A DNA stretch of 64,000 bases from Scleromatobacter humisilvae. Lineage in GTDB: Bacteria; Pseudomonadota; Gammaproteobacteria; Burkholderiales; Burkholderiaceae_C. The notes under the pieces are model-generated. The model was not told the DNA's origin. It did not search any database and saw nothing but the letters and a program-made list of their open reading frames with translations. Shown here one piece after another: positions 10,227 to 28,011 of this stretch (position 1 is its first letter; each line of letters begins with the position of its first letter). A program made the translations under genes and the position numbers. The stretch spans positions 1,240,001-1,304,000 of the forward strand of contig NZ_JAJLJH010000001.1 of NCBI RefSeq assembly GCF_023231945.1. The letters run 5' to 3'.

Positions 10227-11645
10227 ATGACGATTCCTGGCTTGGTTTCGGCTCCTGCGCCGAGAGGATGGGGGCTGGCGCTCTCGATGTGCCTGCTGCT
10301 CGCGGCCTGCGGCGGCGGCAGCGACTCCGCGCCACCGCCCGCGACCGGCAGCGGCGCCATCGCGCTGTCGGCCGCGGCGCAGCTGGGCCAGAAGATCTTC
10401 AACGACGCGACGCTGTCGGTCTCCGGCACGCAGTCGTGCGCGAGCTGCCACGTCACGGGCTCCGCGTTCGCCGAGGATGCGAGCGCCAGCGGCGTCGACC
10501 ACGGCTCGCCCGTGCCCATCGGCGGCGCCGGCATGAACCAGACCGGCTTCCGCAACACGCCCTCGCTGATGTACGCATCGCTGATCCCGGCGTTCACCAT
10601 CGACGCCGACGGCGGGCCCAACGGCGGCTTCTTCCGCGACGGCCGCGCCAACACGCTGGCCGACCAGGCCGTGCTGCCGTTCACCACGTCCTTCGAGATG
10701 GGCAATGCCGACGCGAGCGCCGTCATCGCGCGGCTCAAGACGCGGCCCTACCTCGCCGACTTCCAGGCGCTGTACGGCAGCGCGGTGCTGGACGACCCCG
10801 CGACCGCGCTCGCGCGCATGGGCCAGGCGCTCGCGGCCTTCGAGACGGAGGAGCCGTCGTTCCATCCGTTCTCGAGCAAGTACGACGCGTTCCAGAACGG
10901 CCAGGTCCAGCTCTCGGCACAGGAACTGCGCGGGCTCGCGCTGTTCAACAACGCCACCAAGGGCAACTGCAGCGCGTGCCATCCGAGCACCTCGGGCGAC
11001 GGCGTCCACCCGCCGATGTTCACCGACTTCAGCTACGACAACCTGGGCATCCCGCGCAACGGCCTGATCCCGGCCAACGCCGCGTCGGCGCCCGCGGGCA
11101 CGCCCGTCGACAGCGACGACGGCATCCAGGCGTACTACGACCTGGGCGTGTGCGGCCCGTTCCGCGAGCAGACCGTCAACTTCTTCAGCAACTGCGGCCA
11201 GTTCAAGGTGCCCACGCTGCGCAACATCGCCGTCACCGCGCCCTACTTCCACAACGGCCGCTTCACGACGCTGAAGGACGCGATCGGCTTCTACGTGCGG
11301 CGCGACACCAACCCCGAGGAGTGGTACCCGATGAACGCCGACGGCACGGTCACCAAGTTCGACGACCTGCCCGCGATCTACGGCGGCCAGTTCGTCGTGA
11401 CGCCGGGCGTCGTCGGCAGCGATGCCGGCTATCTCGGCAACGTCAACACGAGCGAGATTCCGTACAACCGCTCGATCGGCGACACGCCGGCCCTGTCGCC
11501 CGACGAGATCGACGACGTCATCACCTTCCTGTGCACGCTGACCGACGGCTACGACCCGGCCCATCCGGGCGCCCAGGTGCTGCCCGCGCAATGCCAGGCC
11601 GCCGTCCACGCGACGGCCGCCTTCCCGACTTCCCAGAGCCGCTGA
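10227..11645 (+). CDS. di-haem cytochrome c peroxidase / MauG-like lipoprotein
   Basis: A 472-residue exported lipoprotein (lipobox LLLAAC, Cys about residue 28, then a Gly/Ser linker) with two c-type haem motifs: CASCH at residues 71-75 and CSACH near residue 250. Family blocks include FFRDGRANTLADQA, GMNQTGFRNTPSLM and PTLRNIAVTAPYFHNGRF around the distal region. These are typical of bacterial cytochrome c peroxidases and MauG relatives, which use high-valent haem to reduce H2O2 or oxidise a protein partner. At 472 residues it is longer than the usual ~330-residue CcpA form. It is followed after five bases by a porin gene. Confidence 0.9.
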   Translation: MTIPGLVSAPAPRGWGLALSMCLLLAACGGGSDSAPPPATGSGAIALSAAAQLGQKIFNDATLSVSGTQSCASCHVTGSAFAEDASASGVDHGSPVPIGGAGMNQTGFRNTPSLMYASLIPAFTIDADGGPNGGFFRDGRANTLADQAVLPFTTSFEMGNADASAVIARLKTRPYLADFQALYGSAVLDDPATALARMGQALAAFETEEPSFHPFSSKYDAFQNGQVQLSAQELRGLALFNNATKGNCSACHPSTSGDGVHPPMFTDFSYDNLGIPRNGLIPANAASAPAGTPVDSDDGIQAYYDLGVCGPFREQTVNFFSNCGQFKVPTLRNIAVTAPYFHNGRFTTLKDAIGFYVRRDTNPEEWYPMNADGTVTKFDDLPAIYGGQFVVTPGVVGSDAGYLGNVNTSEIPYNRSIGDTPALSPDEIDDVITFLCTLTDGYDPAHPGAQVLPAQCQAAVHATAAFPTSQSR

Positions 11646-11650
11646 ACCCC

Positions 11651-13039
11651 ATGAAAAACACGCCTGCCGCCCTCGCCGCCCTGTCCCTGTGCCTGCTGAC
11701 GTCGGCCCGCGCCGCCGAGACGTCGCCCGACATCGCCGAAAAGCTGGCCAACCAGATCAACCAGATGCAGCAGCAGCTCGACGCGATGAAGCAGGAGCTG
11801 GCGCGCGTGAAGGCGCAGAACGACGCGCTCGCCGCCGCGCAGGCCAAGGCCGCCGCGGCGCCGCCGCCCGTCGTCGCGGCCGCGCCGGCTCCGGCGCCTG
11901 CGCCCGCCAGCGCCATCTCGCCCAACCTGGGCCTGTGGGGCTACGGCGAGATCTACTACACGCATCCGACCAAGGACAAGAGCCTGACCGAGGCCGACCT
12001 CGCGCGCGCCGTGTTCGGCATCGGCTACAAGTTCGACGACCGCACCAGCTTCAACTCCGAGTTCGAGGTCGAGCACGCGGTGGCCTCGTCGAGCGACGCC
12101 GGCGAGTTCGAGGTCGAGCAGTTCTACATCGACCACCAGCTGACCGACTCGATCAACGCCAAGGCCGGCCTGTACCTGATGCCCGTGGGCCTGCTCAACG
12201 AGCACCACGAGCCGACCAACTACTTCGGCGTGCAGCGCAACTTCGTCGAGACGCTGATCATCCCCAGCACCTGGCGCGAAGGCGGCCTCGGCCTGCACGG
12301 CACCAGCGACATCGGCCTGACCTGGGATCTGGGCGTCACCACCGGCCTGAACCTGGGCGGCTGGAACAACAGCCCCGAGGATCCGCAGTACCGCACGGCG
12401 CTGGACATGGAAGACAACGACATCGCGCCGATGCAGGCCATGCACCAGGAGCTGCAGCTGGCCAACGCGCAGCACCTGTCGCAGTACGCCGGCCTGAACT
12501 ACGTCGGCGTGCCGGGTCTGCAGCTGGGCGGCTTCGCGTTCACCGGCAACCTCGCGCTGCCCGCGGTGCCGGCCAACCTGCCGCAGTCGCGCCTGACGCT
12601 GTGGGAGACGCACGCGCGCTGGACACCGGGCAACGCCGACATCTCGGCCGTCTATGCGCGCGGCACGATCTCCAAGACGGCCACCTACAACCTCGACAAC
12701 ACCGGCGTGTCCAACCCGATCCCGTCGTCGTTCCTCGGCTACTACGTGCAGGGCGCCTACAAGGTGTGGGAAAGCGGCGGCGAGAAGCTGACGCCGTTCG
12801 TGCGCTGGGAGCACTACGACATGGGCGCCAGCTACGCCGGCATCGCCCCGGGCTTCTCGACCGTGCCCACCGGCCTGGCCTCCGACGGCAAGCCGTGGCC
12901 GCAGCCGCACGACCGCGTCTGGACGGCGGGCGCCAACTTCTACCTCAACCCGAACGTGGTGCTGAAGGCCGACTACCAGCGCTTCAACACCAACACCGAC
13001 CTGACCCGCTTCGACCTGGGTCTGGGCCTGGCGTTCTGA
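11651..13039 (+). CDS. outer-membrane porin-like protein with N-terminal coiled coil
   Basis: A 462-residue outer-membrane protein. It has a signal peptide (cleavage near ARAAE), then a coiled coil (IAEKLANQINQMQQQLDAMKQ ...), an Ala/Pro linker, and a beta-barrel of alternating strands ending with an aromatic terminal residue (LGLGLAF), as the BAM machinery requires. The layout is that of phosphate-selective porin (OprP/OprO)-type or DcaP-like trimeric channels, where the coiled coil projects into the periplasm. It is co-transcribed with the di-haem peroxidase upstream and ends just before a strong terminator. The solute is unknown. Confidence 0.8.
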   Translation: MKNTPAALAALSLCLLTSARAAETSPDIAEKLANQINQMQQQLDAMKQELARVKAQNDALAAAQAKAAAAPPPVVAAAPAPAPAPASAISPNLGLWGYGEIYYTHPTKDKSLTEADLARAVFGIGYKFDDRTSFNSEFEVEHAVASSSDAGEFEVEQFYIDHQLTDSINAKAGLYLMPVGLLNEHHEPTNYFGVQRNFVETLIIPSTWREGGLGLHGTSDIGLTWDLGVTTGLNLGGWNNSPEDPQYRTALDMEDNDIAPMQAMHQELQLANAQHLSQYAGLNYVGVPGLQLGGFAFTGNLALPAVPANLPQSRLTLWETHARWTPGNADISAVYARGTISKTATYNLDNTGVSNPIPSSFLGYYVQGAYKVWESGGEKLTPFVRWEHYDMGASYAGIAPGFSTVPTGLASDGKPWPQPHDRVWTAGANFYLNPNVVLKADYQRFNTNTDLTRFDLGLGLAF

Positions 13040-13573: not shown

Positions 13574-15148
13574 TCAATCGCGTGCCGGATAGCCCGTGAT
13601 GGCCCGGATGCGCGCGTACAGCGGCGCCAGCCGCGGGTACATCTTCTGGTAGACCTGCTCGTAGAGCTGGTCGTACAGCGCCGCGTTCCTCGCATCGGGC
13701 TCGAAGGTGCGCGCGACGCGCGTCATCGCGCGCACGGCGCTCGGGAAGTCGGCGTGCAGGCCCAGGCCCACCGCGCAGTCGATCGCCGCGCCCAGGCCGC
13801 TGGTCTCGTAGACGTGCGGCCGGCTGGCCGGCAGGCGGAAGATGTCGGCCGTCAGCTGCAGCGCGGCGTCGGACTGCGAGCCGCCGCCCGACACCCGCAG
13901 CTCGGTCAGCGCCACGCCCGTCTTCTTCTCGACGCGCTCGCGCCCGTCGCGCAGCGCGTAGCCCAGGCCCTCGAGGATCGCGCGGTAGACGTGCGCCCGC
14001 GTGTGGGCGTCGCCGAAGCCGATGATCGCGCCCTTGGCGTCGGGGCCGGGATGGCGGATGCCGGGCGTCCAGTACGGCTGCAGCACCAGGCCCAGCGAGC
14101 CGGGCGGCACCGCGGCGACGAGCTCGTCGAGCAGCGCCTCGGGCGCGACGCCGCGCTCCTGCGCCGCGTTGCGCTCGCGATCGCCGAACTGCTCCTTGAA
14201 CCAGCGCACCATCCAGTAGCCGCGGAAGATCTGCACCTCGCTGTCGAAGTGGTCGGGCAGGGCGGCCGGATAGGGCGGCACGAAGGACAGCGCCTCCGCG
14301 TATTTCCTCGTGCAGACATTGATGGTGGCCGTGGTGCCGTACGAGATGCCGCCGACGTGCGGCTCGAGGCAGCCCGAGCCCAGCACCTCGCAGGCCTTGT
14401 CGGCCGCCGCGGCGATCACGGGCGTGCCGGCGGGGATACCCGTGGCCGTACTCGCCGCGGCGCTGACGCGTCCCAGCGTCGAGCCGACGGGGCGCAGCTC
14501 GGGCAGCTGCTCGCGCCGCACGGAAAGCGCCTGCCACTTCCAGTCCGACGGCTTCGCCCACGCATGCGCCTTGAAGTCGAACGGCACGTAGCCCACCTGC
14601 GAACCGACCGAGTCGACGAACTCGCCGGTCAGCTTCCAGTTGATCAGCCCCGACAGCAGCAGCACCTTGTGCGTGCGCGCCCAGGCCGCGGGCTCGTTCT
14701 CGGCCCACCAGTTGACCTCGGCCTCTCGCTGGAAGTAGCGGATGGTGTCGGCGACGCCCGCGAGGCGGAATGCCGTGCGCCACGCCACGCCGATCTGCGG
14801 CACCTTCGCCGCGCGGCGCTGGTCGAGCCAGACCAGCGCGGGCAGCGCCGCGTTGCCCTGCGCGTCGATGGGCATGATGGTGCCGCGCTGCGTGGTCACC
14901 GTGACGCCGCGCACCCGCGCGGCGAGCTCCGGACGATCCAGCCACAGCTGGCGGCAGGCACGCGCGCTGGCGGCCCAGAAGCCGTCGACGTCGTGCGCCA
15001 TCCAGCCGGGTTGCTCGACGACGTAGTCGTCCAGCGCGAGCTGCGACTTCGCCACCAGGTTGCCGAGCGGGTCGAACAGCAGCGCGCGCACGCTCTGCGT
15101 GCCGCAGTCGATCGAGAGCAGGAGGTCGTCGGGACGGGCAACGGTCAT
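13574..15148 (-). CDS. FGGY-family carbohydrate (polyol) kinase
   Basis: A 524-residue sugar or polyol kinase. The N-terminal phosphate-1 motif is LLLSIDCGTQSVRALLFD, phosphate-2 is GGISYGTTATINVCT, and the adenosine motif is SGGGSQSDAALQLTADIF. These show the two-lobed FGGY/ASKHA fold that phosphorylates sugars or polyols such as glycerol, xylulose or erythritol. Its ATG overlaps the stop of the GlpD gene (ATGA, 15145-15148), so it is the last of four coupled genes. The combination with GlpD suggests a polyol phosphate feeding the dehydrogenase; the exact substrate is not visible. Confidence 0.92.
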   Translation of the reverse strand: MTVARPDDLLLSIDCGTQSVRALLFDPLGNLVAKSQLALDDYVVEQPGWMAHDVDGFWAASARACRQLWLDRPELAARVRGVTVTTQRGTIMPIDAQGNAALPALVWLDQRRAAKVPQIGVAWRTAFRLAGVADTIRYFQREAEVNWWAENEPAAWARTHKVLLLSGLINWKLTGEFVDSVGSQVGYVPFDFKAHAWAKPSDWKWQALSVRREQLPELRPVGSTLGRVSAAASTATGIPAGTPVIAAAADKACEVLGSGCLEPHVGGISYGTTATINVCTRKYAEALSFVPPYPAALPDHFDSEVQIFRGYWMVRWFKEQFGDRERNAAQERGVAPEALLDELVAAVPPGSLGLVLQPYWTPGIRHPGPDAKGAIIGFGDAHTRAHVYRAILEGLGYALRDGRERVEKKTGVALTELRVSGGGSQSDAALQLTADIFRLPASRPHVYETSGLGAAIDCAVGLGLHADFPSAVRAMTRVARTFEPDARNAALYDQLYEQVYQKMYPRLAPLYARIRAITGYPARD

Positions 15149-16779
15149 GGGGTGGGCACGCAGTAGCAGCTGGCAATGATGCGCGCGTAGCGCTCGCGCT
15201 GGTCGCGCCATTCTCCGGCAGACCAGCCGAGCGCCTCGCGCGCCACCGGTTCGAGACGTGGCAGGAGCGCGGCGGCGCCTTCGGGCAGCAGCAGGCCCAG
15301 GCGCGTGCGGCGCAGCAGCAGGTCGTCGAGGAAGCGAACCTGTTCGTGGCGCAGCGCCCAGTGCAGCTCGGCCCAGGGCGTGGCCGTGCCGGCGATGGGT
15401 TCGAGGTCGGCCGGCGCGGACTCGCGCAGCAGCACCCGCGCGTGGCGGCCGAAGCGTCCGGCGAGGCGGCTGCGCAGGCCGTGCGGAAGCGCGAGCAGTT
15501 CGGGCGCCTCGGGCTGGGGCGCGAAGATCGGGTCGGCCGCGCGATAGTCGAAGGCGTCGGCGCTGGTCGTCGCAGCGACGGCCGCATCGCCGGCGACGGA
15601 CGATGGCGCCAGGTAAGGCGCGGCGTGGCGCAGCGCGTCGAGCGCGTTGACACGGAAGGTCGTCAGCTTGCCGCCGGTGACCGTGATCAGGCCGTGCTCG
15701 TCGCGCACGACGTGCTCGCGCGGCGCCTTCGACGGATCGCCGCCGCCGGCGCGATCGTCGACCACCGGACGCACGCCGGCGAAGCTGCAGATCGCGTCGG
15801 CCGCGCGCAGGTCCAGGCGCGGGAAGGCCTGGCGCACCGCCTCGACGAGGTAGGCCGTCTCGTCGGCCGTGATGCTCGGCTCGATGTCGGGATCGTCGTG
15901 GTGGTCGAGGTCGGTCGTGCCCACCAGCGCGACGCCCTCCCACGGCGTCGCGAAGACAGGGCGGCCGTCGCGCGGGTGGTAGAGACTCACCGTCTGCGCG
16001 ACCGGCAACTTCCACAGCGGAAACACGAGATGGCTGCCGCGGAGAGGCCGCAGCATCGGCGTGCCCAGGCCGCGGCGCAGGCCGTCGGCCCAGAAGCCGG
16101 TGGCGTTGACGACGCAGCGCGCCCGCACCGCGCCGGTGAAGCCCGCGCCCTCGATGCGCGCACCGACGACGGTGCCCGGCTTCGGCGCGGCGCCGCCGTC
16201 GGCCGACAGCGACGACAGCGGCATGTCTGCGTCGCCCGCGCGCAGCAGCGACTTCACCGCCGCGCGGTTGACCACGCGCGCGCCGTGCTGCTGCGCCTCC
16301 TGCAGCACGCGCATCACCAGGCGCGCGTCGTCGGTCTTGGCGTCGAGGTAGCTGGACGCCCCCAGCAAGTGCGTGTCGTCCATGTGCGGCGCGAGCGCGC
16401 GCACCTCGTCGGGCGTGTGGAAGCCGCGCGTGCGCTGGCCGGCCATCGCGTCGTAGATCGCCAGACCCGTGACCATCGTGCGCCGGCTGGGGCTGCGGCC
16501 TTCGTAGTGGCCCATCAGGAAGCGCTGCGCCTCGACGAGCCCCGGCGCGTCCTGCAGCAGCCGGCCGCGCTCGCGCACCGATTCGCGCGTCAGGCCGAAC
16601 GCGCCCTCGCGCAGGTAGCGCAGGCCGCCGTGCACGAGCTTGGACGAGCGCGACGAGCTGCCCCACGCGAAATCGCGCGCCTCCACGAGCATCACGGCCA
16701 GGCCGCGGCGCGCCGCCTCCAGCGCGACGCCGGCCCCGGCGATGCCGCCGCCGACGACGAGGATGTCGACCTCGGTCAA
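15145..16779 (-). CDS. glycerol-3-phosphate dehydrogenase/oxidase (GlpD-like)
   Basis: A 544-residue FAD-dependent dehydrogenase that oxidises glycerol-3-phosphate (or a related polyol phosphate) at the membrane and passes electrons to quinone. The FAD-binding Rossmann motif is VVGGGIAGAG (residues 8-17). The GlpD signatures WGSSSRSSKLVHGGLRYL and, later, FAGVRPVVDD and TVTGGKLTTFR are intact. The C-terminal DAO_C domain is present. Translation starts with TTG at 16779, whose last bases overlap the stop of the 71-residue gene (TTGA). It shares a four-gene coupled unit with an AGPS-like oxidase and an FGGY kinase rather than with glpFK, so it may not be the housekeeping GlpD. Confidence 0.9.
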   Translation of the reverse strand: MTEVDILVVGGGIAGAGVALEAARRGLAVMLVEARDFAWGSSSRSSKLVHGGLRYLREGAFGLTRESVRERGRLLQDAPGLVEAQRFLMGHYEGRSPSRRTMVTGLAIYDAMAGQRTRGFHTPDEVRALAPHMDDTHLLGASSYLDAKTDDARLVMRVLQEAQQHGARVVNRAAVKSLLRAGDADMPLSSLSADGGAAPKPGTVVGARIEGAGFTGAVRARCVVNATGFWADGLRRGLGTPMLRPLRGSHLVFPLWKLPVAQTVSLYHPRDGRPVFATPWEGVALVGTTDLDHHDDPDIEPSITADETAYLVEAVRQAFPRLDLRAADAICSFAGVRPVVDDRAGGGDPSKAPREHVVRDEHGLITVTGGKLTTFRVNALDALRHAAPYLAPSSVAGDAAVAATTSADAFDYRAADPIFAPQPEAPELLALPHGLRSRLAGRFGRHARVLLRESAPADLEPIAGTATPWAELHWALRHEQVRFLDDLLLRRTRLGLLLPEGAAALLPRLEPVAREALGWSAGEWRDQRERYARIIASCYCVPTP

Positions 16780-16991
16780 TGCAGGTCCTCGCAGCCGCGC
16801 GGCGGCAGGCTGGCCTTGGCGTCCGCCGTGTCGCGCGGCGCGACCCGGCGCGCGGGCCGCGGGCCGACGAAGACGCTGCGACGCGCAGCCGGCTCCGGCT
16901 GCAATGCGGCCAACGCCGCGGCGACGACGCGCATCGCGACGGCCACGGGCGTGCGCGCACGCGCGAACGCGAGGCGGCGATCGATGCTCAT
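16776..16991 (-). CDS. 71-residue basic protein embedded in a coupled operon
   Basis: A small Arg/Ala-rich protein that I do not recognise. Its ATG overlaps the stop of the FAD oxidase gene (ATGA, 16988-16991) and its stop overlaps the TTG start of the dehydrogenase gene (TTGA), which argues for real translation. The N-terminal half could form an amphipathic helix (VAVAMRVVAAALAALQPE); the rest is Pro/Arg-rich and ends RGCEDLH. It could be a small subunit or adaptor, or simply a coupling ORF that keeps ribosomes moving. Confidence is limited because in such GC-rich DNA short frames arise easily. Confidence 0.5.
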   Translation of the reverse strand: MSIDRRLAFARARTPVAVAMRVVAAALAALQPEPAARRSVFVGPRPARRVAPRDTADAKASLPPRGCEDLH

Positions 16992-18604
16992 TCGATGTCG
17001 CCCAGCAGGTTGCCGCGCGCCATCACGCCCTGCGGATCGAACTCGCGCACCATCGCGGCGATGGCGGACATGCCCGTCGCGCCCTTCTCGGCCGCCAGCC
17101 AGCGCGCGTGGTCCTTGCCGACGCCGTGCTGATGCGTGATCGTGCCGCCCTGCGCGACGATCGCGTCGCCGACGGCGGTCTTGAGCGACTGCCAGCGGGC
17201 GAGCGCGCTGTCGTAGTCCGCGCCGATGCGATAGACGAAGGTCGAGTAGACGCTGGAGCCCTGCGCGTAGACGTGCGACAGGTGCGTGTAGCAATGCGTG
17301 CGCTCGCCGTGCCGTGCCAGCGCGCCGCGGCCGGCGGTCTCCAGCGCGTGCACCATCGCGTCGACGCGCGGCCAGTCGCACGCGGTCTCCATCGTGTCGA
17401 CCGCATAGCCGGCGTCCCACAGCGCGTTGCGCAGGTAGACGTTGGCGAAGCGGCGCTGCGCCCACTTCCTGCCCAGCACGGTGCCGGTGGAGACGCCGCC
17501 GTGCTCCTGCCAGATCGCCGCGGCCGCGCGCTGCATCGAACGGACGGCGCCCGCGCTGGCACCGGTGAAGCCGGCGAACAGCAGGCACTTGCCCTCGCCC
17601 GCGCCGTTGAGCGACAGGTAGCGCTCGAGCCAGCGGATCGCGCCCGCGTGGCCGGCCATCTGCAGCGTCGTGAAGGTCTCGGCCGGATTGGCCAGGCGCA
17701 GCATCGACAGCCCCAGCCTGGCCTGCCCGAGGCGGCGCACCGCGGCCAGGCCGCTGGCCCAGTCGGGGAAGAAGATGCCGACGAAGCGCTCGGCCACGGG
17801 CGCGCGCGTCACGCGCACGCTGGCCTCGGTCAGCACGCCGATGCGGCCTTCGGAGCCGAGCACCCACTCGCGCAGGTCGGGGCCGGCGGCCGAGGCGGGG
17901 AAGGTCGGCAGCGTCCATTCGCGCTCCGGCGTCTGCAGCGTGCCGCCGGCGAACAGCTGCTCGATGCGGCCGTAGCGCGCCGACTGCTGGCCCGACGAGC
18001 GCGTCACCACCCAGCCGCCGAGGGTCGACAACTCGAAGCTCTGCGGAAAGTGGCCCAGCGTGAAGCCGTGGGCGCGCAGCTGGGCCTCGAGGTCGGGCCC
18101 GGCGACGCCGGCCTCGAAGCGCGCGAGCTGCGCCACCGGGTCGAGATCGAGCAGCCGCATCATGCGGCCCATGTTGAGCGTGAGCACCGGCGCGGCGCCC
18201 ACCGGCGTGAGGTGGCCGGCGACGCTGGTCGCGCCGCCGGAGGGCAGCACCTGCACGCCCTGCTCGCGCGCCCACGTCAGCAGCGCGCGCACCTCGGCGC
18301 TGCTGCTCGGGAAGGCGACGCCGTCGGTCACGCGCCCCAGGACGCCGAAGCGCAGCCGCAGCCAGTCGTGCATGGACTGGCCGAAGCTGGCGCGCAGGCG
18401 CGTCTCGGCGCGCGTGTCGACCAGCGGATGCGGCGGCAGCCGCGAGGGCTGGGCGTCGACCTGCGCCAGCGCGGCGGCGAAGGTGGCGTCCGACGGCGGC
18501 TGGCCCTCGCCGATGGCCTGCGCCAGGAAGGCGCGCGCCTCGGGCTTGAGCTCTTCGTGCACGCTGGCATCGCCCCAGCCGTTCCAGCGTCGTTCGGTGG
18601 TCAT
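16988..18604 (-). CDS. FAD-binding oxidase, alkyl-DHAP synthase (AGPS)-like
   Basis: A 538-residue flavoprotein of the VAO/PCMH fold. The FAD-binding region shows VLPSGGATSVAGHLTP (pyrophosphate loop) and FELSTLGGWVVTRSSGQQSARYG. The C-terminus carries the AGPS-type His motif ITHQHGVGKDHARWL and the final GVMARGNLLGD. Eukaryotic AGPS swaps the acyl group of acyl-DHAP for a fatty alcohol in ether-lipid synthesis; bacterial relatives are also called FAD-linked oxidases or lactate/glycolate oxidases, so the reaction is not certain. It is the first gene of the unit with the 71-residue protein, GlpD and FGGY kinase, and is divergent from an AraC regulator. Confidence 0.87.
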   Translation of the reverse strand: MTTERRWNGWGDASVHEELKPEARAFLAQAIGEGQPPSDATFAAALAQVDAQPSRLPPHPLVDTRAETRLRASFGQSMHDWLRLRFGVLGRVTDGVAFPSSSAEVRALLTWAREQGVQVLPSGGATSVAGHLTPVGAAPVLTLNMGRMMRLLDLDPVAQLARFEAGVAGPDLEAQLRAHGFTLGHFPQSFELSTLGGWVVTRSSGQQSARYGRIEQLFAGGTLQTPEREWTLPTFPASAAGPDLREWVLGSEGRIGVLTEASVRVTRAPVAERFVGIFFPDWASGLAAVRRLGQARLGLSMLRLANPAETFTTLQMAGHAGAIRWLERYLSLNGAGEGKCLLFAGFTGASAGAVRSMQRAAAAIWQEHGGVSTGTVLGRKWAQRRFANVYLRNALWDAGYAVDTMETACDWPRVDAMVHALETAGRGALARHGERTHCYTHLSHVYAQGSSVYSTFVYRIGADYDSALARWQSLKTAVGDAIVAQGGTITHQHGVGKDHARWLAAEKGATGMSAIAAMVREFDPQGVMARGNLLGDIE

Positions 18605-18736
18605 GTGGCTATACTCGTTTTCAGGTCGAATGCGCCCACGAAGCCTGGAAAGACGAGGCCCCGGACGCTACGCCGCGATGGTGCGCCGAACGCGCACCGG
18701 CGGCTTGTCTTTCGCCGACAGGCGAGTTGCCACTAC

Positions 18737-19864
18737 ATGCCAGTCCCGCCCGCGGCAACCCCGCCCGCCTCCTCTGCCGTCAACCGGCCCGCGGACGCGC
18801 CCTGCCCGATCCCGCCGGCGCAGGACGCGCGCGTCGCCATGGCCTACGTGCAGACGGCGGTGGCGGCGGCGCAGACGATGGGCGTGACGCCCGCCGCGCT
18901 GTGCGCCGATCTCGCCTGGCCCGCCGACACGCTGGACCCCGCGCGCGACAGCCTCGGCGTCGCCGAATACATCGCGCTGCTGGGCGCGGGCGACCGCCTC
19001 GCGGGCGATCCGGCGTTCGGCCTGCACGTCGGACTGCAGGCGCGGCTGTCCACCTATCCGTTCTACGGCCTGGTGGTGTGCGCCTGCACGACGCTGCGAG
19101 CCGCCTTCGACCAGACCCGCCGCTACGAAGGCCTCGCGCACGACCTCGGCCGCTCGCGCCTGGACGAGCGCGGCGACGTCGCCACCTACTACTGGGACAC
19201 GCCCTGGCTGGCCCAGTGCACGCCCGCCGAGGCGCGCCATCTCTGCGACAGCGTGCTCGCCGGCATCCTCACCTTCGTCAGCTGGCTCGCGCACGAGCGG
19301 CTGCCGGTGCGCGAGATCGGCCTGCCCTATCCCGAGCCCGACGCGGCGATCCGCGCGGCCCATGCGCAGGTCTTCGGCCCCGCGGTCGTCTACGGCGTGC
19401 CCGCCGCCTACGGCCGCTTCGACGCCGCACTGCTCGATCGCCCGGTGCCCAACGCCGACGGCAGCATGCTCAAGGTGTTGCAGCGCCACGCCGACGAGTT
19501 GCTGGCCGCGCGCCTGCGCGAGACCTCGGAGCCGCGCATCGTCAGCGACGTGCGGCGCGAGGTCGCGGCCCAGCTCGCCAACGACCGCGCCCGCGTCGAC
19601 GACGTCGCCTCGGCGCTGGCCGTCAGCACCCGCACGCTGCAACGCAAGCTCGCCGACGCCGGCACCAACTTCCAGGCCGTGCACGACGCCGCCCGCCAGG
19701 CGCTGGCCGAGGAACTGCTGCGCGACTCGCGGCTGAACCTCACGGACGTCGCGTACATGCTGGGGTATCGCGAACAGAGCTCGTTCAACCGGGCCTGCCG
19801 CGACTGGTTCGGCAACACGCCGGCGCGCACGCGCGAGCGCCTGCGCGCGGCCGTCGGCACCTGA
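18737..19864 (+). CDS. AraC-family transcriptional regulator
   Basis: A 375-residue regulator with an N-terminal AraC-type sensing domain (Arabinose_bd family, VGLQARLSTYPFYGLVV region) and a C-terminal pair of helix-turn-helices. The first is VDDVASALAVSTRTLQRKLAD and the second is the classic block LTDVAYMLGYREQSSFNRACRDWFGNTPARTR. It is divergent from the FAD-oxidase/GlpD/kinase genes with a 130-base gap, so it is the likely local activator; its ligand may be a substrate or product of that pathway. Confidence 0.9.
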   Translation: MPVPPAATPPASSAVNRPADAPCPIPPAQDARVAMAYVQTAVAAAQTMGVTPAALCADLAWPADTLDPARDSLGVAEYIALLGAGDRLAGDPAFGLHVGLQARLSTYPFYGLVVCACTTLRAAFDQTRRYEGLAHDLGRSRLDERGDVATYYWDTPWLAQCTPAEARHLCDSVLAGILTFVSWLAHERLPVREIGLPYPEPDAAIRAAHAQVFGPAVVYGVPAAYGRFDAALLDRPVPNADGSMLKVLQRHADELLAARLRETSEPRIVSDVRREVAAQLANDRARVDDVASALAVSTRTLQRKLADAGTNFQAVHDAARQALAEELLRDSRLNLTDVAYMLGYREQSSFNRACRDWFGNTPARTRERLRAAVGT

Positions 19865-21517: not shown

Positions 21518-21901
21518 TCAGCCGGCCGTCACCTCGATGCGACGCGGCTGCGCCTGGGCCTGCTTCGGGATCCGCAGGGTCAGCACGCCGTCCTTCAGAT
21601 TGGCCTCGATGCGCGCGGCGTCGAGCTCCCGGCTCAGCGTGAAGGTGCGGCGGAAGCGCGGGACATTGACCTCGGCCCACACCGCGCGCATTTCCGCTGG
21701 CGCGTCCAGTTCCACGCGGCCCTCGATGGAAAGGTTGTCGCTGTCGAGCTTGACGTCCAGGCGCTCCTTCGACACGCCCGGCATGTCGGCCAGCAGCGTA
21801 ATGCCGCCGGCGTCCTCGAAGATGTCCACGGCGGGCAGGGCGGGACGTTGCGCCGATTCGGCAGGCTTGTTGGCGGTGGTGAGTTCGTTGCGATCAGTCA
21901 T
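21518..21901 (-). CDS. Hsp20/alpha-crystallin small heat-shock protein
   Basis: A 127-residue small heat-shock chaperone. The alpha-crystallin domain begins VDIFEDAGGITLLADMPGV and ends with the signature DGVLTLRIPK, followed by a short tail. sHsps form oligomers that hold unfolding proteins for refolding by DnaK/ClpB. The C-terminal I-x-I anchor is present only loosely (RRIEV). It is the second of two adjacent Hsp20 genes, 33 bases apart. Confidence 0.93.
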   Translation of the reverse strand: MTDRNELTTANKPAESAQRPALPAVDIFEDAGGITLLADMPGVSKERLDVKLDSDNLSIEGRVELDAPAEMRAVWAEVNVPRFRRTFTLSRELDAARIEANLKDGVLTLRIPKQAQAQPRRIEVTAG

Positions 21902-21934
21902 GTCGGTTCTCCTTCAATCCGTGGTCGTGGGAGG

Positions 21935-22381
21935 TCACTGCACCGCGATGCGCTGCGGTTGCGCGGCGGCGCTCAACGCCACGCTCACGCGCAGGACGCC
22001 GTCGCGGTATGTCGCCTCGACCTTCAGCGGGTCGACGTCGTCAGGCAGGGAAACGGCCCGCGAGAAGCCTCCGTCCGGCCGCTCGTTCGCGTACAGCTGC
22101 ACCTGGGCGTCGCGCTTCGGGATGGCGGCGCTGCGGGCGCCGGAGATCTTGAGGACGTTGCGCTCGATCGTGACGTCGAGCGTCGACGCGTCGAGGCCGG
22201 GCGCGAAGGCGAAGACCTCCACGCTCGTGGGCGTGCGCCCGACGTTGATCTCGGGGAAGGCGCCGTAGCCGACGGCGCGGATGCCGCCGGGCGCGCCTTC
22301 GGCGCCGAACGAGCGCGCGAGCAGGCGCTGCATGGTTTCGAGTTGGTCGAAAAGGCTCTGGGGCCGCAGGGTGTCGATCAT
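21935..22381 (-). CDS. Hsp20/alpha-crystallin small heat-shock protein
   Basis: A 148-residue sHsp more like IbpA in layout, with an N-terminal helix (LFDQLETMQRLLARSF), then the alpha-crystallin domain with PEINVGRTPTSVEVFAFAPG and the end signature YRDGVLRVSVALS. The start has GGAG seven bases upstream. Its divergence from the second copy implies the two are paralogues that may co-assemble, as class A/class B sHsps do. It lies in one orientation with a 60-residue protein upstream. Confidence 0.93.
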   Translation of the reverse strand: MIDTLRPQSLFDQLETMQRLLARSFGAEGAPGGIRAVGYGAFPEINVGRTPTSVEVFAFAPGLDASTLDVTIERNVLKISGARSAAIPKRDAQVQLYANERPDGGFSRAVSLPDDVDPLKVEATYRDGVLRVSVALSAAAQPQRIAVQ

Positions 22382-23673: not shown

Positions 23674-24246
23674 TCAGCCCGCGAACACCCGGTTCTCCAG
23701 TTGCAGGAGGTGCGCCGCGAAGCCGTCGGGCGCACGCGCGACGCGTCGTGCGCTGGTCCGCACGCGCCTAGCGTTGGTTCAGCGGATGGTCGCGCCTTGC
23801 CAATGGTCTTCGTGCGCCAGTGCCATGGCGACCGCGACCCGGTCGCCCTGGGCGAGCGCGTCGTGGGTGGAGGCGAGACCTCATGGACGAACAGGTGCTG
23901 ATGGCGTGCACCATGCTGCGAAGCATCGGAACGGAGCGCTTTAGGCTGCCGGAACGCCAACGGTCAGGCCTCTTTAACGACTTGCCAGGCGACTCTTGCG
24001 GGAGGGGAGAAATGCGGAACAGAGCTAGTGGAGAACACGCTCAAAGTCGCGTGAGCGCAGCCAAGCTGTGAATTGCAGTGACAGGCTATTTGACTACCCG
24101 TAGACCTACGGGTTCCCGAGCTTTCACTCTTCGGGTGGCCAACTACGGATCGCCTATGGCACAAGGACGCCCGGGTGAGATGACGGGAAGTAGCTGCCCA
24201 CCAATGACAGCTCCTGGCCGACCTGAGACGACCGGTCGCCCCACCG
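23674..24246. other. intergenic stretch; base composition shifts, no gene called
   Basis: No convincing gene is present. The GC content appears to drop after about 23900, and a perfect inverted repeat lies at 24096-24113. A minus-strand frame ending at 23779 (ALAQGDRVAVAMALAHEDHW) looks protein-like but is cut by stops and lacks a start, so it may be a relic. Confidence 0.55.
24096..24113. repeat. perfect 8+8 inverted repeat
   Basis: ACCCGTAG-AC-CTACGGGT is a perfect palindrome with a 2-base centre and no T tract on either side. It sits at the edge of the composition shift, 130 bases from the nearest gene's 3' end. It could be an operator, a recombination site or a remnant; nothing else shows which. 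Confidence 0.5.
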
Positions 24247-25002
24247 TCAGCAGACCCGGCAGTCGACTTCCTGCATGTCGCGGGGCACGGTGTACTTCGA
24301 CCCGTCGTATTGCAACCGGTGCTCGTTGGTTTTCACGCTGGTGGGTGCAAGGCGACATCGGCCGGAAGCGTCCTTCTTGCCCGCTGAATCGGTGATCGTT
24401 TCCTTAACCAGCAGGTCGCGGAAGCCGTGACTGAGCGCCTTGTCGACGACCAGAACCCGTGCAATCTCGCGTCTCTGCTCTTCGCAGACTTCGGCACGGT
24501 TCGAATAGGAGATGCGCATGTCGGCGTTTGACAGGACATTGACGATGTCCTTGCCCCTCACGACGAATAGGGCGAGTTCCTCACCGTCGGTAGGAACACC
24601 GAACAGAGTCATGGAATTGAGCGCGCGTACACCGAAGGCCCGGACGCCGGGCGCGATAAAGTATCTGCCAGTGTCGACCTTGATCTCGCCGAGCTCCGGA
24701 CCGCCGCCGTTTTTCAGCAGGCCCTTGAAGTGGCCGACTGCGATGGACTTGCCGCTGACAAGATCTTCCAAAGACACATCGAGATCGTAGCTGTCCTCTG
24801 ATGCATCCTCCGACGCATCGCGCGGGGAGGCTACGGCCCAGATGTCCTTGTTTAGCTCGAAATCTCTCTTGCAGGCAACGTGTTCTTGGCCGGAACCCGG
24901 TGAATCCGCGAACTTCAGATGCCGCCTCTGGTCATCGCTCGAGCAATTTCCCCAAGCAGACATCGAAAGAACACCGGAGACTACGAATACGGCGAGGCGC
25001 AT
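24247..25002 (-). CDS. secreted Cys-rich hypothetical protein
   Basis: A 251-residue exported protein I cannot assign. The N-terminus is a signal peptide (MRLAVFVVSGVLSMSAWGN), and the mature part has seven Cys, including NCSSDD at its start, HVACKRD, EVCEEQ, GRCRL and the terminal DCRVC, so disulfide bonding is likely. A short direct repeat of DASEDASEDS is seen. The central region has beta-strand character. Base composition is less GC-rich than in flanking genes. It stands alone between gene-poor stretches. Confidence 0.65.
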   Translation of the reverse strand: MRLAVFVVSGVLSMSAWGNCSSDDQRRHLKFADSPGSGQEHVACKRDFELNKDIWAVASPRDASEDASEDSYDLDVSLEDLVSGKSIAVGHFKGLLKNGGGPELGEIKVDTGRYFIAPGVRAFGVRALNSMTLFGVPTDGEELALFVVRGKDIVNVLSNADMRISYSNRAEVCEEQRREIARVLVVDKALSHGFRDLLVKETITDSAGKKDASGRCRLAPTSVKTNEHRLQYDGSKYTVPRDMQEVDCRVC

Positions 25003-25239
25003 AAATCGACGGGTGACGAGGCCTTAGGATCCCGGGATGGTAGCTGAACGCCAATTCGAGCGGCTGGTCCCAGAGCGGCGTCATTTACCCGACACTCTGC
25101 AACATCTCAATCTCCGAAGTCGCTGATGGCTCTCGTGGATGACAAGCCATCGCACCCTGGGATTCGAGGCAGGTGCAGGGTGCCCTTCCCGAAAGCGGAA
25201 AGTCGCGAGCGACCGGTTGTGGCCGGATTGTGACTTCTC

Positions 25240-25743
25240 TCAACGCCGCGTGGAACTTGCAAGCCACGCAGCACGAAGCGCTCTTGCGTCGACGAGCGCA
25301 TGATGCCGGCCCGGCGATTTGCTGGTTTCGAACACCGCGTTCTGGGCGGCCTCTCCCGGCGTCCCCGGCGCCGCCACGCCGGCGACGTCCTCGGTGCGAA
25401 TTGTCGAGGCCAATGCGTGCCACTGCCCGGCCGCGCTCAGCGCGCTCTCGAAGAATCGCCAGTCAAGTTTGTAGTCATACGAAATTACGACTGGGTGCTC
25501 GAACGAACGTAGCCAGTTTGCCACCCGCGCGCCGACCGCCGCGTCGTCGCGAACAGCAGCGCCAGGTACGAGTCCGAACTGGGGAATCACCACGTCCTTG
25601 CAGAAGTCACTCGCCTGGGCATGGCGGGTCAGATCTGCAACCTCGACATAGAACTCATGGCCTTCGTCGGTGACCAGCCCAATCGAGAGCAGTTGGCCGT
25701 CACGGAACTGGGTGAACTCGGTGTCGAGGAATATGCGACGCAT
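25240..25743 (-). CDS. Rv2179c-like 3'-5' exoribonuclease (DEDDh fold)
   Basis: A 167-residue nuclease-fold protein. It begins RRIFLDTEFTQF, giving the D-x-E of the first exonuclease motif, has ISYDYKLDWRFF in the middle and HHALVDARALRAAW at the C-terminus with the His and Asp of the DEDDh site. The layout and length fit the Rv2179c-like domain that degrades RNA 3'-to-5' with two metal ions. The target in bacteria is unclear. It is an isolated gene next to the Sel1 repeat gene. Confidence 0.8.
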   Translation of the reverse strand: MRRIFLDTEFTQFRDGQLLSIGLVTDEGHEFYVEVADLTRHAQASDFCKDVVIPQFGLVPGAAVRDDAAVGARVANWLRSFEHPVVISYDYKLDWRFFESALSAAGQWHALASTIRTEDVAGVAAPGTPGEAAQNAVFETSKSPGRHHALVDARALRAAWLASSTRR

Positions 25744-25966
25744 GGCTTCCGTTCGTGGGTTGCCCGGGGGAAAGGGGCGATAGCCTACCCCGAAGCCGAC
25801 GTTCGCGACTGGCAGATCGTGGCCGACACATGCCTATGCGGCGAAATACTCAACGATGACTTTGTCATCGCTAACCATGCTACTGGCCGCGTGCCGCCCG
25901 AAAGAAACCAAGTCGATCGCAACGCTGCCGACCCAAGCGGCGGCAGTTGCTTGGCGAGCATCAAAG

Positions 25967-27349
25967 TCAATTTTCTGCCCCCGTTCCCGAGGCAAGGAAC
26001 TCGTCGACAGCCCTTCCCACGCCAAGGACTGCAGCGCGACTGACCAGCGCTTGGCCGCGTTCGACATCCTTCTTGCTCAGGAGCTCCTGCACGATCGCTC
26101 GATTGCCGACTGCGTGGCTATTGTTTGAGGGGTCGATTTTCACGGAGAGGCCAAACAGCGCATAGGCGACCACCAGGTTCTTGCGCACGCCTTGACCACG
26201 GGCGTACATATCTCCCCAGTTACTGAGCGCTTGGCGGTTCCCTTGTTCAGCGGCTTGTCGATACAACGTCGCGGCAGCGCTGAAGTCCTGCGGGACACCC
26301 TCACCGTTGCTGTAAAGGACGCCGAGGTTGTTGCGGGCTTCGGCGTCCCCTTGCTCAGCTGCCTCGTGAAACCAAGCCGCCGCGGCATTCATATCCTTCG
26401 GAACGCCACCGCCGCTGGCATACATGCTGCCGAGAGAACGTTGCGCAGTCGCATGCCCTTGTTTTGCCGCCTTGCGATACCAGGCAGCTGACTCTTGCAT
26501 GTCCTTCTTCAAGCCTTTGCCGGTGCCGTACAGGGCGCCGAGCAAAAACTGCGAGTCGGCATCGCCCTGTTCAGCCGCCTTGAGGAGCCAAGCGGCCCCC
26601 TCGCGGTCGTCTTCGGATACACCTTGGCCGGCGAGATACATGGTGGCGAGAACGTACTGCGCCATGGCGGCACCTTGACCAGCCGACTTGCGAATCCAGC
26701 CCGCGGCCAGGACCATGTCCTTGCCGACGCCTTCGCCAATGTAGTACGCCTCGCCGAGACGTAGCTGGGCTGTGGCATTTCCCTCGTCGGCCGCCGCGCG
26801 ATACCAATGTATCGCCTCACGCGCATCCTTGTCGACACCTTCACCTTTCGTGTACATCAATGCAAGGGCGAGCTGCGCGGGCTCATTCCCTTGCTCGGCC
26901 CCCCGGCGAAACCAGGCTGCGGCCTCGGGCGTATCCTTCGTCACTCCAAGGCCGTTGAGATACAGGCGTCCCAAGTCGTACTGCGCATGGCCATCCCCTT
27001 GCTCGGCCGACTTCCGAAACCAGACCGCGGCCTCAGCCTCGTCCTTGGGAACGCCCTGCCCATTGACGAATAGGAGCCCAAGCAGATACTCGCCTCGGGA
27101 GTCGCCATTGACAGCCAACGAGCGAAACTGCTGCAGCGCCTCTGAATAATTCCTTTCCTCGTACGCCTTCAGCCCCTCGCTCAAGCCGGCATATGCTGCT
27201 TTGGAACCGAGGCACAGTACCAGGAGCGCAAGGCCGCTCTTCAGCGACGCGAATCTGGAACTCGTGCGGTTCAAGAAGTGTACGGAGGTCGAATCCCAGA
27301 AATCGCGCATTGGTGTTTGGAGACTGGTGAGCCGTGATCGGCGGGGCAT
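25967..27349 (-). CDS. Sel1-like repeat (SLR) protein, nine repeats
   Basis: A 460-residue exported or membrane-anchored protein. After a hydrophobic signal (LALLVLCLGSKAAYAG at about residues 40-55) come a TPR-like unit and nine Sel1 repeats of exactly 36 residues following the pattern A-LG-LY--G-GV-KD---A--W--KAAEQG. SLR proteins are scaffolds in envelope stress, secretion and signalling. The start is uncertain: the frame opens at an ATG at 27349, an ATG at 27310 is also possible, and neither has a good ribosome-binding site. The C-terminal ~60 residues after the last repeat are not a recognised domain. Confidence 0.85.
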   Translation of the reverse strand: MPRRSRLTSLQTPMRDFWDSTSVHFLNRTSSRFASLKSGLALLVLCLGSKAAYAGLSEGLKAYEERNYSEALQQFRSLAVNGDSRGEYLLGLLFVNGQGVPKDEAEAAVWFRKSAEQGDGHAQYDLGRLYLNGLGVTKDTPEAAAWFRRGAEQGNEPAQLALALMYTKGEGVDKDAREAIHWYRAAADEGNATAQLRLGEAYYIGEGVGKDMVLAAGWIRKSAGQGAAMAQYVLATMYLAGQGVSEDDREGAAWLLKAAEQGDADSQFLLGALYGTGKGLKKDMQESAAWYRKAAKQGHATAQRSLGSMYASGGGVPKDMNAAAAWFHEAAEQGDAEARNNLGVLYSNGEGVPQDFSAAATLYRQAAEQGNRQALSNWGDMYARGQGVRKNLVVAYALFGLSVKIDPSNNSHAVGNRAIVQELLSKKDVERGQALVSRAAVLGVGRAVDEFLASGTGAEN

Positions 27350-27573
27350 GGTCGAGCGATGGAACGTGCATTAGTCTCGGCCTGCAGCAGCACGCCTAGA
27401 GCAGCTGTGAATTCGGCCAATAGGGATGTGATCGTCGACCACCTTTCCGCGATGCCGACGACTGCATCGTAAGATGGCCTACGACCTTACCCCATAGCGG
27501 ACACGTTCGAACGACCGCTTCTGGCCGTTCAGAGAGATCCCAGATCGACCTCAACGTCACAATCCGTACTCGC

Positions 27574-28011
27574 TCATGGTTTGAAGATGTCGACGGGGAG
27601 CAATACGACCGATGTCGTGCCGCGGTTTTCCCACCAGTGCGATACGTCACGTGTTGCGATCACCATGTCACCCGGTTGGTGGGGGATCTCGATTCCGTTG
27701 CGGATCTCGACAGGCTGCCCCTGAACGACATACTCCATCGTCGGCCGGTCCTTGTGGCTATGGAGTGCGATGTGTCCACCGGGCTCGATGGTCACCAGGC
27801 GCGCACGCAGTTGGCGCGCTGACATCCCCTCGATTTCGCTCGACAAGTCGATCGTCCCAAGCGACTTGGTGGACACCCCTTGGGCCTCCGATGGGCCGGT
27901 GCCTTGCGAATGTGCGACTACCGCCAACGTGATGGCGCCCAAGACGGCAACTGCAATTGCAGTCCACCGAGCCGGAACGATCGACCGCGATGTCAGAAGG
28001 TCTGGATTCAT
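27574..28011 (-). CDS. cupin-domain protein with N-terminal membrane anchor
   Basis: A 145-residue protein. Residues ~15-35 form a single hydrophobic helix (signal anchor or uncleaved signal), followed by a cupin barrel. Cupin motif 1 is visible as GGHIALHSHKDRPTMEYVVQG, with His/His/Glu ligands, and motif 2 as PGDMVIATRDVSHWWENRG with a His. It probably binds a divalent metal in the periplasm; the substrate is unknown. It lies downstream of tag in the same direction, 57 bases away, with no obvious functional link. Confidence 0.85.
   Translation of the reverse strand: MNPDLLTSRSIVPARWTAIAVAVLGAITLAVVAHSQGTGPSEAQGVSTKSLGTIDLSSEIEGMSARQLRARLVTIEPGGHIALHSHKDRPTMEYVVQGQPVEIRNGIEIPHQPGDMVIATRDVSHWWENRGTTSVVLLPVDIFKP

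Follow-up and report, generated by a model that had tools for sequence, protein, structure and literature searches.

The closest described system is the operon PA3026-PA3024 of Pseudomonas aeruginosa with its divergent AraC-family regulator GliR (PA3027), an arrangement in print since 2021 without a settled function (PMC8151288). GliR was reported to activate a phospholipase C gene also and, in Escherichia coli, to activate its own promoter without added ligand, and deletion of the operon or of gliR caused no growth defect in the media tried, including Biolog plates (PMC8151288). The authors proposed a scheme of ether-lipid biosynthesis for P. aeruginosa and suggested that outside Pseudomonas the operon replaces missing GlpK/GlpD (PMC8151288). 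A search for a link to alkanes had a single outcome: the PA3026 protein is lower, not higher, on n-octadecane.

A bacterial AGPS homologue is also part of the three-gene ether-lipid operon MXAN_1676-1674 of Myxococcus xanthus; in the available part of that report (PMC9131029) its partners are FAR/GNPAT-like and epimerase-type, a biosynthetic set, whereas a kinase and a GlpD-like enzyme are the partners in the locus described here. Plasmid clusters of Streptomyces fungicidicus and Tsukamurella tyrosinosolvens carry AGPS (39-41% identical), a GlpD-like gene and a kinase side by side, but their kinase is of a lipid family, their regulator is of the TetR type and the GlpD-like gene is transcribed divergently. 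Alkylglycerol monooxygenase (AGMO) reaches the same end as the route proposed below, ether cleavage of alkylglycerols, with oxygen and tetrahydrobiopterin instead of phosphorylation, oxidation and flavin chemistry. The available part of a 2021 review describes it as the only enzyme then known to cleave the alkylglycerol ether bond (PMC7911779).

Locus organization

The window, a 64,000-nucleotide stretch of the Scleromatobacter humisilvae contig NZ_JAJLJH010000001.1, carries on its minus strand an AGPS-family gene (16988..18604), a 71-codon open frame (16776..16991), a GlpD-family gene (15145..16779) and an FGGY-family kinase gene (13574..15148), chained in this order by three 4-base overlaps. 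ATGA at 16988-16991 is the AGPS stop and the start of the 71-codon frame, TTGA at 16776-16779 the stop of that frame and the TTG start of the GlpD-like gene, and ATGA at 15145-15148 the GlpD-like stop and the kinase start; all three overlaps, already listed in a preliminary description of the locus, are present in the sequence. A divergent AraC-family regulator gene on the plus strand (18737..19864; Arabinose_bd and HTH_18 domains), GliR-like by domain type and position, belongs to the unit and had been absent from the earlier gene set. The 132 bases between the AraC and AGPS starts (18605..18736) are presumed to hold the divergent promoter.

The operon is of the GliR type, an arrangement already described in P. 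aeruginosa and not new: AGPS-like, GlpD-like and FGGY kinase genes follow in the same order on one strand next to a divergent AraC regulator, a likeness judged by families, order and position. The two loci differ in that PA3023 (YegS-like) follows the operon in P. aeruginosa and is absent after the operon here, in the inserted 71-codon frame, and in the region between the divergent genes, where the published P. aeruginosa GliR binding motifs A and B have no match between 18605 and 18736 when 2 and 1 mismatches are allowed. Window-wide, both motifs exceed shuffled sequence (99 against 45 on average, and 29 against 10), an excess probably due to coding sequence. No transporter or lipase gene is found in the unit, and no FAR/GNPAT-like partner was detected by Pfam in the unit or among the 20 hand-picked neighbour genes scanned.

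Three of the four genes of the preliminary description, those for the AGPS-family, GlpD-like and kinase proteins, are firm by Pfam; the fourth, the putatively coding 71-codon frame, is doubtful as a real gene. It matches no family in the Pfam and NCBIfam profiles and is present in 2 of 4 genus genomes, the remaining two joining AGPS and GlpD directly. Its mismatches against genome G002 by codon position are 12/13/21, compared with 28/18/110 for AGPS. A codon model built from its three neighbours (AGPS, GlpD-like, kinase) gives it a score of 8.6, higher than for any of the remaining five frames (-5.7 to -68.2) and lower than for every 71-codon window sampled from those neighbours (lowest 20.9).

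Enzyme families

The 538 aa product of the first gene (Pfam FAD_binding_4 and FAD-oxidase_C) has AGPS chains as its closest solved relatives in a PDB sequence search (2uuu, 2.2e-66; 4bby, 7.6e-52), followed by 3pm9 as the first non-AGPS chain (7.9e-20) and, far behind, by glycolate and D-lactate enzymes (3e-16 and 1e-14). A glycolate or lactate oxidase, the identity that the preliminary description had named as fatal to its assignment, is ruled out by this ranking and by the NCBIfam glcD score, 92 bits where the cut-off is 568. The available part of PMC3509576 gives R352, R447 and Y508 (Dictyostelium numbering) as essential AGPS residues; our own transfer through the PDB-search alignment maps them to R303, R392 and Y453, kept in 81 of 81 aligned AGPS-like proteins. 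Position T201 varies, with Thr in 59 proteins, Ser in 21 and Ala in 1, and was left out of the argument. The likeness to AGPS/ADPS thus extends over sequence family, the catalytic Arg/Arg/Tyr set and the FAD domains. The differences are the missing GNPAT partner, a proposed direction opposite to that of the solved enzymes, and their HHH motif, here H491-Q492-H493: Q492 occurs in 79 of 81 proteins and HHH in 2 of 81, while the actinobacterial plasmid forms have HHH. That HHH is a defining AGPS feature is our own assumption, and HQH is therefore no ground to exclude membership of the family, which the sequence supports, in keeping with the earlier assignment.

The GlpD-family FAD dehydrogenase (544 aa; Pfam DAO and DAO_C) keeps the E. 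coli GlpD positions R54, Y55, H233, T270, R317, R332 and K354 in 78 of 78 proteins, whereas 268 and 375 vary among the nine positions checked; position 375 differs also between E. coli GlpD and the host's classical GlpD. The positions are presumably phosphate-binding or catalytic, so conservation of the seven argues for a glycerol-3-phosphate-type substrate. The protein scores 278.5 bits with the NCBIfam glycerol-3-phosphate dehydrogenase equivalog NF008899, below the cut-off of 360.

The 524 aa kinase (Pfam FGGY_N and FGGY_C) scores 144 bits with the GlpK profile TIGR01311 (cut-off 590; 691 for the genome's true GlpK) and 224.5 bits with the xylulokinase profile TIGR01312 (cut-off 380). A Foldseek search with its AlphaFold model (pLDDT 87) was non-discriminating, since autoinducer-2, glycerol and xylulose kinases scored alike among the matches listed. 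Among R83, E84, W103, D245 and F270, which we take to form the glycerol pocket of GlpK and all of which the host's own GlpK retains, the operon kinases keep R83, W103 and D245 and have lost E84 and F270 in 69 of 69; Tyr135 was left out of this comparison, the alignment shifting there by one residue. Glu84 and Phe270 are missing from the two xylulokinase-like proteins of the host as well, so this loss alone is no proof of a lipid substrate; the QMHG motif of those two proteins is absent from the operon kinase.

A classical full-score glpK and another GlpD-family gene lie elsewhere in the host genome, on contig C3, and the unit lacks the glpFKD set, as had been noted before. These separate classical genes rule out in this genome that the operon stands in for missing GlpK/GlpD. 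Across the order, replacement of GlpK is not supported either: in a survey, all 8 genomes with this AGPS have a classical GlpK (102 of 200 overall), which argues against the operon kinase as its stand-in.

Distribution and regulators

Relatives were the 80 loci that matched best in a GTDB scan, drawn from several bacterial phyla. Their neighbourhoods were surveyed by codon-scored gene calls, since shadow frames and Marinobacter synteny dominated a census of raw ORFs. Of the 79 loci readable for this feature, 78 have AGPS and GlpD side by side, a linkage beyond chance that bears out the one proposed earlier and goes against the genes being unlinked in relatives. The FGGY kinase follows directly in 68; five Chloroflexota loci with enough sequence have none adjacent.

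Of the 80 loci, 27 have an AraC relative next to the unit in divergent orientation. In 11 (Chloroflexota, Acidobacteriota) the gene immediately upstream, in the same orientation as the unit, encodes a FadR-like regulator, a call made with Pfam FadR_C in two loci and with BLAST in the remainder. The word TGGC-N8-ACAA is shared by 13 of 28 intergenic regions of the AraC type, compared with at most 4 in 20 shuffles; the species sharing it are related, it is absent from the window, and no conclusion was drawn from it.

Among six plasmid records inspected, two have a lipid-kinase gene next to those for AGPS, TetR and a GlpD-like protein. In S. fungicidicus it encodes a YegS/Rv2252/BmrU lipid kinase, and in T. 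tyrosinosolvens a diacylglycerol-kinase-family protein 36-38% identical to the S. fungicidicus kinase. Rv2252 is a diacylglycerol kinase (PMC3229680). Among the 1219 genes called across the 80 loci, none is similar to these two kinases. The actinobacterial GlpD-like proteins score 141 and 132 bits against the window's GlpD, compared with 149 and 149, and 166 and 135, against classical GlpDs. Being no closer to the former, they suggest that the plasmid arrangement may be convergent, for which reason ether-lipid breakdown and the wider proposal of oxygenase-free cleavage were rated slightly lower, and the published biosynthesis scheme slightly higher, in the assessment below.

Functional interpretation

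The surroundings of the operon favour glycerol lipids bearing ether-linked chains over an ordinary sugar alcohol, given the separate classical glpK and glpD together with kinases lacking Glu84 and Phe270, the plasmid lipid kinases and the upstream FadR-like regulators. Tentatively, and with somewhat less than even confidence, we read the GliR-type operon as a conserved three-enzyme module that breaks down alkylglycerols by AGPS chemistry run in reverse. The kinase would convert 1-O-alkylglycerol to 1-O-alkyl-glycerol-3-phosphate, and the GlpD-like enzyme would oxidize C2 to form 1-O-alkyl-dihydroxyacetone phosphate, with the respiratory chain receiving the electrons. In the AGPS-like enzyme, working against the textbook direction, Tyr453 would take the C1 proton and the carbon would add to flavin N5; the alkoxide would depart as a fatty alcohol, a fatty acid or water replacing it to yield acyl-DHAP or DHAP. 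Products would enter glycolysis and beta-oxidation, and the AraC gene, or a FadR-like or TetR regulator in other phyla, would switch the operon. Protein families, catalytic residues, conservation of gene order and kinds of regulator are observed here, whereas substrate, direction and induction are inferred. That such oxygenase-free cleavage of alkylglycerols, through phosphorylation, C2 oxidation and a flavin N5 adduct, is widespread in bacteria is possible and is put forward with more reserve. The ether-bond formation considered in the preliminary description thus survives as plausible ether-bond chemistry, either making or breaking, with a lean towards breaking.

The textbook direction of AGPS is towards ether formation. 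In the scheme published for P. aeruginosa the kinase makes G3P from glycerol, the GlpD-like enzyme makes DHAP, an enzyme encoded elsewhere acylates it and AGPS swaps acyl for alkyl; this agrees with the AGPS reaction as given in the available part of PMC3509576, with the proposal itself (PMC8151288) and with the intact catalytic residues. It is nevertheless quite unlikely here: the operon kinase lacks the Glu84/Phe270 pocket, all 8 surveyed genomes with this AGPS have a classical GlpK besides, DHAP belongs to central metabolism anyway, and the lipid-kinase replacement in two plasmids is at odds with a glycerol substrate. No acyltransferase or alkyl-DHAP reductase was found among the 20 hand-picked neighbour genes scanned, which was counted for breakdown and against this scheme. 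Synthesis free of an acyltransferase, with the kinase acting on monoacylglycerol, the GlpD-like enzyme turning 1-acyl-G3P into acyl-DHAP and AGPS exchanging acyl for a fatty alcohol, would account for the lipid-kinase replacement, the FadR-like regulators and the missing GNPAT while keeping AGPS in its known direction. It requires oxidation and then re-reduction, Pfam recognised no reductase or fatty-alcohol-forming gene in the unit, and no bacterial precedent appears among the papers listed by a literature search, so that it, too, appears unlikely.

If the AGPS-like protein acted instead as a dehydrogenase or oxidase, the operon could serve to degrade some polyol or a derivative of glycerol, a reading favoured by the Arabinose_bd domain of the regulator and by the FGGY and GlpD families, which commonly serve polyols. 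It is very unlikely, since AGPS is far closer than any oxidase, the Arg/Arg/Tyr set is complete in 81 of 81, and lipid kinases and FadR-like regulators point to lipids. The uptake and phosphorylation of a polyol suggested earlier is not supported: the unit has no transporter, two residues of the glycerol-kinase pocket are missing from its kinase, the latter is replaced by a lipid kinase in 2 of 6 plasmid records, and FadR-like regulators adjoin the unit in other phyla.

Several observations stand against breakdown of ether lipids: the known direction of AGPS, the P. aeruginosa deletions without growth defect, ligand-free GliR activity in E. coli, the decrease of PA3026 on n-octadecane, the possibly convergent actinobacterial clusters, the 0 of 1219 lipid-kinase-like genes in the 80 loci, the five Chloroflexota loci without FGGY kinase, and the unit's lack of a transporter or lipase. 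Fatty-acid synthesis is also under the control of FadR proteins, a further observation on this side.

If the lipid reading is true, 1-O-alkylglycerols become candidate substrates and bacterial ether-lipid recycling would be explained; cleavage by reversed AGPS would be a second way, beside AGMO, to cleave the ether bond. The swaps of kinase type and regulator type between lineages make the hypothesis directly testable. The activation of a phospholipase C gene by GliR in P. aeruginosa (PMC8151288) is an observation on the side of breakdown.

Gene arrangement and flavoenzyme identity

The minus strand of the window carries, from 18604 to 13574, a head-to-tail series of three firm genes, which encode an AGPS-family flavoenzyme (16988-18604, 538 aa), a GlpD-family dehydrogenase with a TTG start (15145-16779, 544 aa) and an FGGY kinase (13574-15148, 524 aa). 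An AraC-type gene with an Arabinose_bd domain (18737-19864, plus strand) is divergent from the AGPS gene, its start lying 132 bases away. The three overlaps of the preliminary description (16988-16991, 16776-16779, 15145-15148) are exact in the sequence, and the AGPS-GlpD-FGGY arrangement had been observed correctly.

The closest solved relatives of the flavoenzyme in a sequence search were AGPS chains, which scored tens of orders of magnitude better than glycolate, lactate or hydroxyglutarate enzymes. The earlier AGPS-type call was thereby supported, and the lactate or glycolate oxidase alternative was rejected. R352, R447 and Y508, reported as important in Dictyostelium AGPS in PMC3509576, correspond in an alignment with solved AGPS to R303, R392 and Y453 of the window protein, which are invariant in 81/81 sequences (the window and 80 loci). 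The AGPS HHH motif reads HQH in 79/81; three actinobacterial forms carry HHH.

HHH is also present in a more distant AGPS-like family (30-34% identity; L098:7049-13601 of genome G014, from the window's taxonomic family, L116, L117), whose partners are different: AMP-binding/acyl-CoA synthetase, CaiB-type CoA transferase, gamma carbonic anhydrase and AraC genes. L116 is Moraxella osloensis plasmid p4, where the group is flanked by two Tn3-family transposase genes, and L117 is a Roseovarius plasmid. Another AGPS-like gene, with a TetR gene near, is located on a plasmid of Mycobacterium dioxanotrophicus (L115:5986-7599), a name suggesting growth on the cyclic ether dioxane.

The 71-codon frame at 16776-16991, between the AGPS and GlpD-like genes, had been counted as a fourth gene, a status that is unproven; the other three stand. 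It had no match in family searches and is found in two of four genus genomes, with the 4-base overlaps kept on both sides; the remaining two have no such insertion, GlpD following immediately on the AGPS stop. The relative G002 retains frame and overlaps, with substitutions of 12/13/21 by codon position, as compared with 28/18/110 for AGPS. Under a codon model trained on the three neighbouring genes, the score of the frame is above zero, yet below every sampled stretch of equal length from those genes.

Distribution and linkage

GTDB genomes were scanned with the window AGPS, giving at least 592 pattern matches, of which at least 589 encode relatives; the best 80 loci were retained as a selected set and not a census. 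At one locus the contig stops just past AGPS. All other 79 contain a GlpD-like gene, which is the same-strand neighbour of AGPS in 78 and overlaps it in 41. A kinase of the operon type follows in 68 loci, always directly 3' of GlpD and overlapping it in 40, so the linkage proposed earlier holds in relatives. Among the 11 loci lacking this kinase, at most 127 bases remain past GlpD in L046, L056, L062, L075 and L085, and 745 bases in L078. The other five (L044, L069, L081, L083, L087), all labelled Chloroflexota, have no such kinase nearby. At the usual kinase site of two of them (L083:13427-14485, by PF01180 scan; L081:13430-14485, by BLAST), a dihydroorotate-dehydrogenase-family gene overlaps the GlpD end. 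Record labels include Burkholderiales, several gammaproteobacteria, Chloroflexota, Acidobacteriota, Eremiobacterota and Actinomycetota. A large share of the loci come from metagenome bins, for which mislabelling is possible.

Among 200 genomes of the window's order (E up to 1e-100), AGPS was found in eight, the kinase in eight and both in seven, so the unit is patchily distributed, with AGPS and kinase largely co-occurring. Six of the seven have both genes on a single contig, separated by a few kilobases; the seventh, G182, has them on separate contigs, with AGPS at the edge of its own. AGPS without the kinase was seen in G217 (a partial match), and the reverse in G036. The G036 kinase (L112:8261-10237) is of the operon subfamily (59% identical), with AGPS and GlpD not nearby, O-antigen ligase-type and GAPDH genes upstream and a gene without a Pfam match downstream.

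Comparison with the GliR operon and the glycerol pathway

The architecture is that of a described yet unexplained operon type: P. aeruginosa PA3026-PA3024 has the same gene order and a divergent AraC gene, PA3027 (GliR). Among the matches listed in a literature search, PMC8151288 alone contains both 'FGGY' and 'alkylglycerone'. That report proposes a route from glycerol to alkylglycerone phosphate, describes the cluster as confined to very few sequenced strains and suggests that outside Pseudomonas it substitutes for missing glp genes. Classical GlpK is present in 8/8 AGPS genomes of the order survey (102/200 overall), which speaks against such a replacement. On another contig of the window's own genome lie a GlpK with a full score (691 bits) and a further GlpD-family gene, adjoined by genes for a putative GlpR-like regulator and a putative ABC transporter, both read from an ORF list.

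Six GlpK positions that we take to function in glycerol binding were examined. R83, W103 and D245 are kept in 69/69 operon kinases; in all 69, E84 is replaced by G, A, S or T and F270 is absent, and Y135 aligns ambiguously. The host's two other FGGY kinases, xylulokinase-like with a QMHG motif that the operon kinase does not have, likewise lack E84 and F270, so the loss indicates only that the enzyme is not a GlpK. The confidently predicted kinase structure (pLDDT 87, pTM 0.90) matches autoinducer-2, glycerol and xylulose kinases equally well and thus gives no choice of substrate. For the GlpD-like enzymes, nine positions presumed from E. coli GlpD were tested: seven are kept in 78/78, and 268 and 375 vary. 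From these residues the enzymes are therefore expected to act on a glycerol-3-phosphate-type substrate.

Pointers to lipids and proposed direction of the pathway

Six of 69 records from a plasmid protein search were inspected, chosen from the matches listed. The gene after AGPS encodes a YegS/Rv2252/BmrU lipid kinase on a Streptomyces fungicidicus plasmid and, on a Tsukamurella tyrosinosolvens plasmid, a protein of the diacylglycerol-kinase family that shares 36-38% identity with that kinase; both clusters also have TetR, with the GlpD-like gene divergent. In Nonomuraea AGPS adjoins a GlpD-like frame, with no lipid kinase of that kind within 6 kb, and in the remaining three records the AGPS-like protein is more distant and its partners differ. 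Two results weaken this pointer: GlpD-like proteins from both lipid-kinase clusters score no higher with the window GlpD than with classical GlpD, and among the 1219 genes predicted across the 80 loci none resembles the two lipid kinases.

In 11/80 loci the gene immediately upstream, in the same orientation, encodes a FadR-like GntR regulator (8/12 labelled as Chloroflexota groups, 3/3 as Acidobacteria or Holophagales), at most 100 bases away in ten and slightly farther in L075; FadR_C was scanned in two, the others being BLAST relatives. E. coli FadR senses long-chain acyl-CoA. Further pointers are the activation of phospholipase C PlcA by GliR and the absence of an ether-lipid-synthesis acyltransferase or reductase from a Pfam scan of 20 hand-picked neighbour genes, three of which had no Pfam match. 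In this they differ from the Myxococcus MXAN_1676-1674 operon, for which PMC9131029 describes FAR/GNPAT-like domains. PMC8151288 reports the PlcA activation and a YegS-like gene after the P. aeruginosa operon kinase; Rv2252 is given as a diacylglycerol kinase in PMC3229680. The present analysis adds the breadth of the unit, its exchanges of regulator and kinase type, and the residues of the kinase; taken together, these favour an ether-lipid role.

Two routes would engage all three enzymes on lipids. Alkylglycerols may be broken down by kinase, dehydrogenase and AGPS in reverse, or monoacylglycerol may serve in synthesis through the same steps with AGPS running forwards. Breakdown is preferred, since the kinase and dehydrogenase would follow their families' normal direction, AraC, FadR or TetR control and patchy inheritance suit a catabolic unit, and synthesis would have to include a subsequent re-reduction step, with no gene for it seen. 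We infer on chemical grounds that AGPS may be reversible, from the ping-pong flavin-adduct mechanism described in PMC3509576. Counting against breakdown are the five Chloroflexota loci with no kinase nearby, P. aeruginosa deletions without a phenotype or growth defect and ligand-independent GliR activation in E. coli (both as given in PMC8151288), and lower PA3026 on n-octadecane, as stated in PMC5491041.

Other features of the window

No tRNA was found within the window. GC content is about 0.60-0.61 at 24001-28000, against a background near 0.70. At 10287-13036 a gene for a di-haem cytochrome c peroxidase (CCP_MauG) precedes one that encodes about 480 aa and matched no Pfam family, and a tandem pair of HSP20-family small heat-shock genes lies at 21521-22381 on the minus strand.
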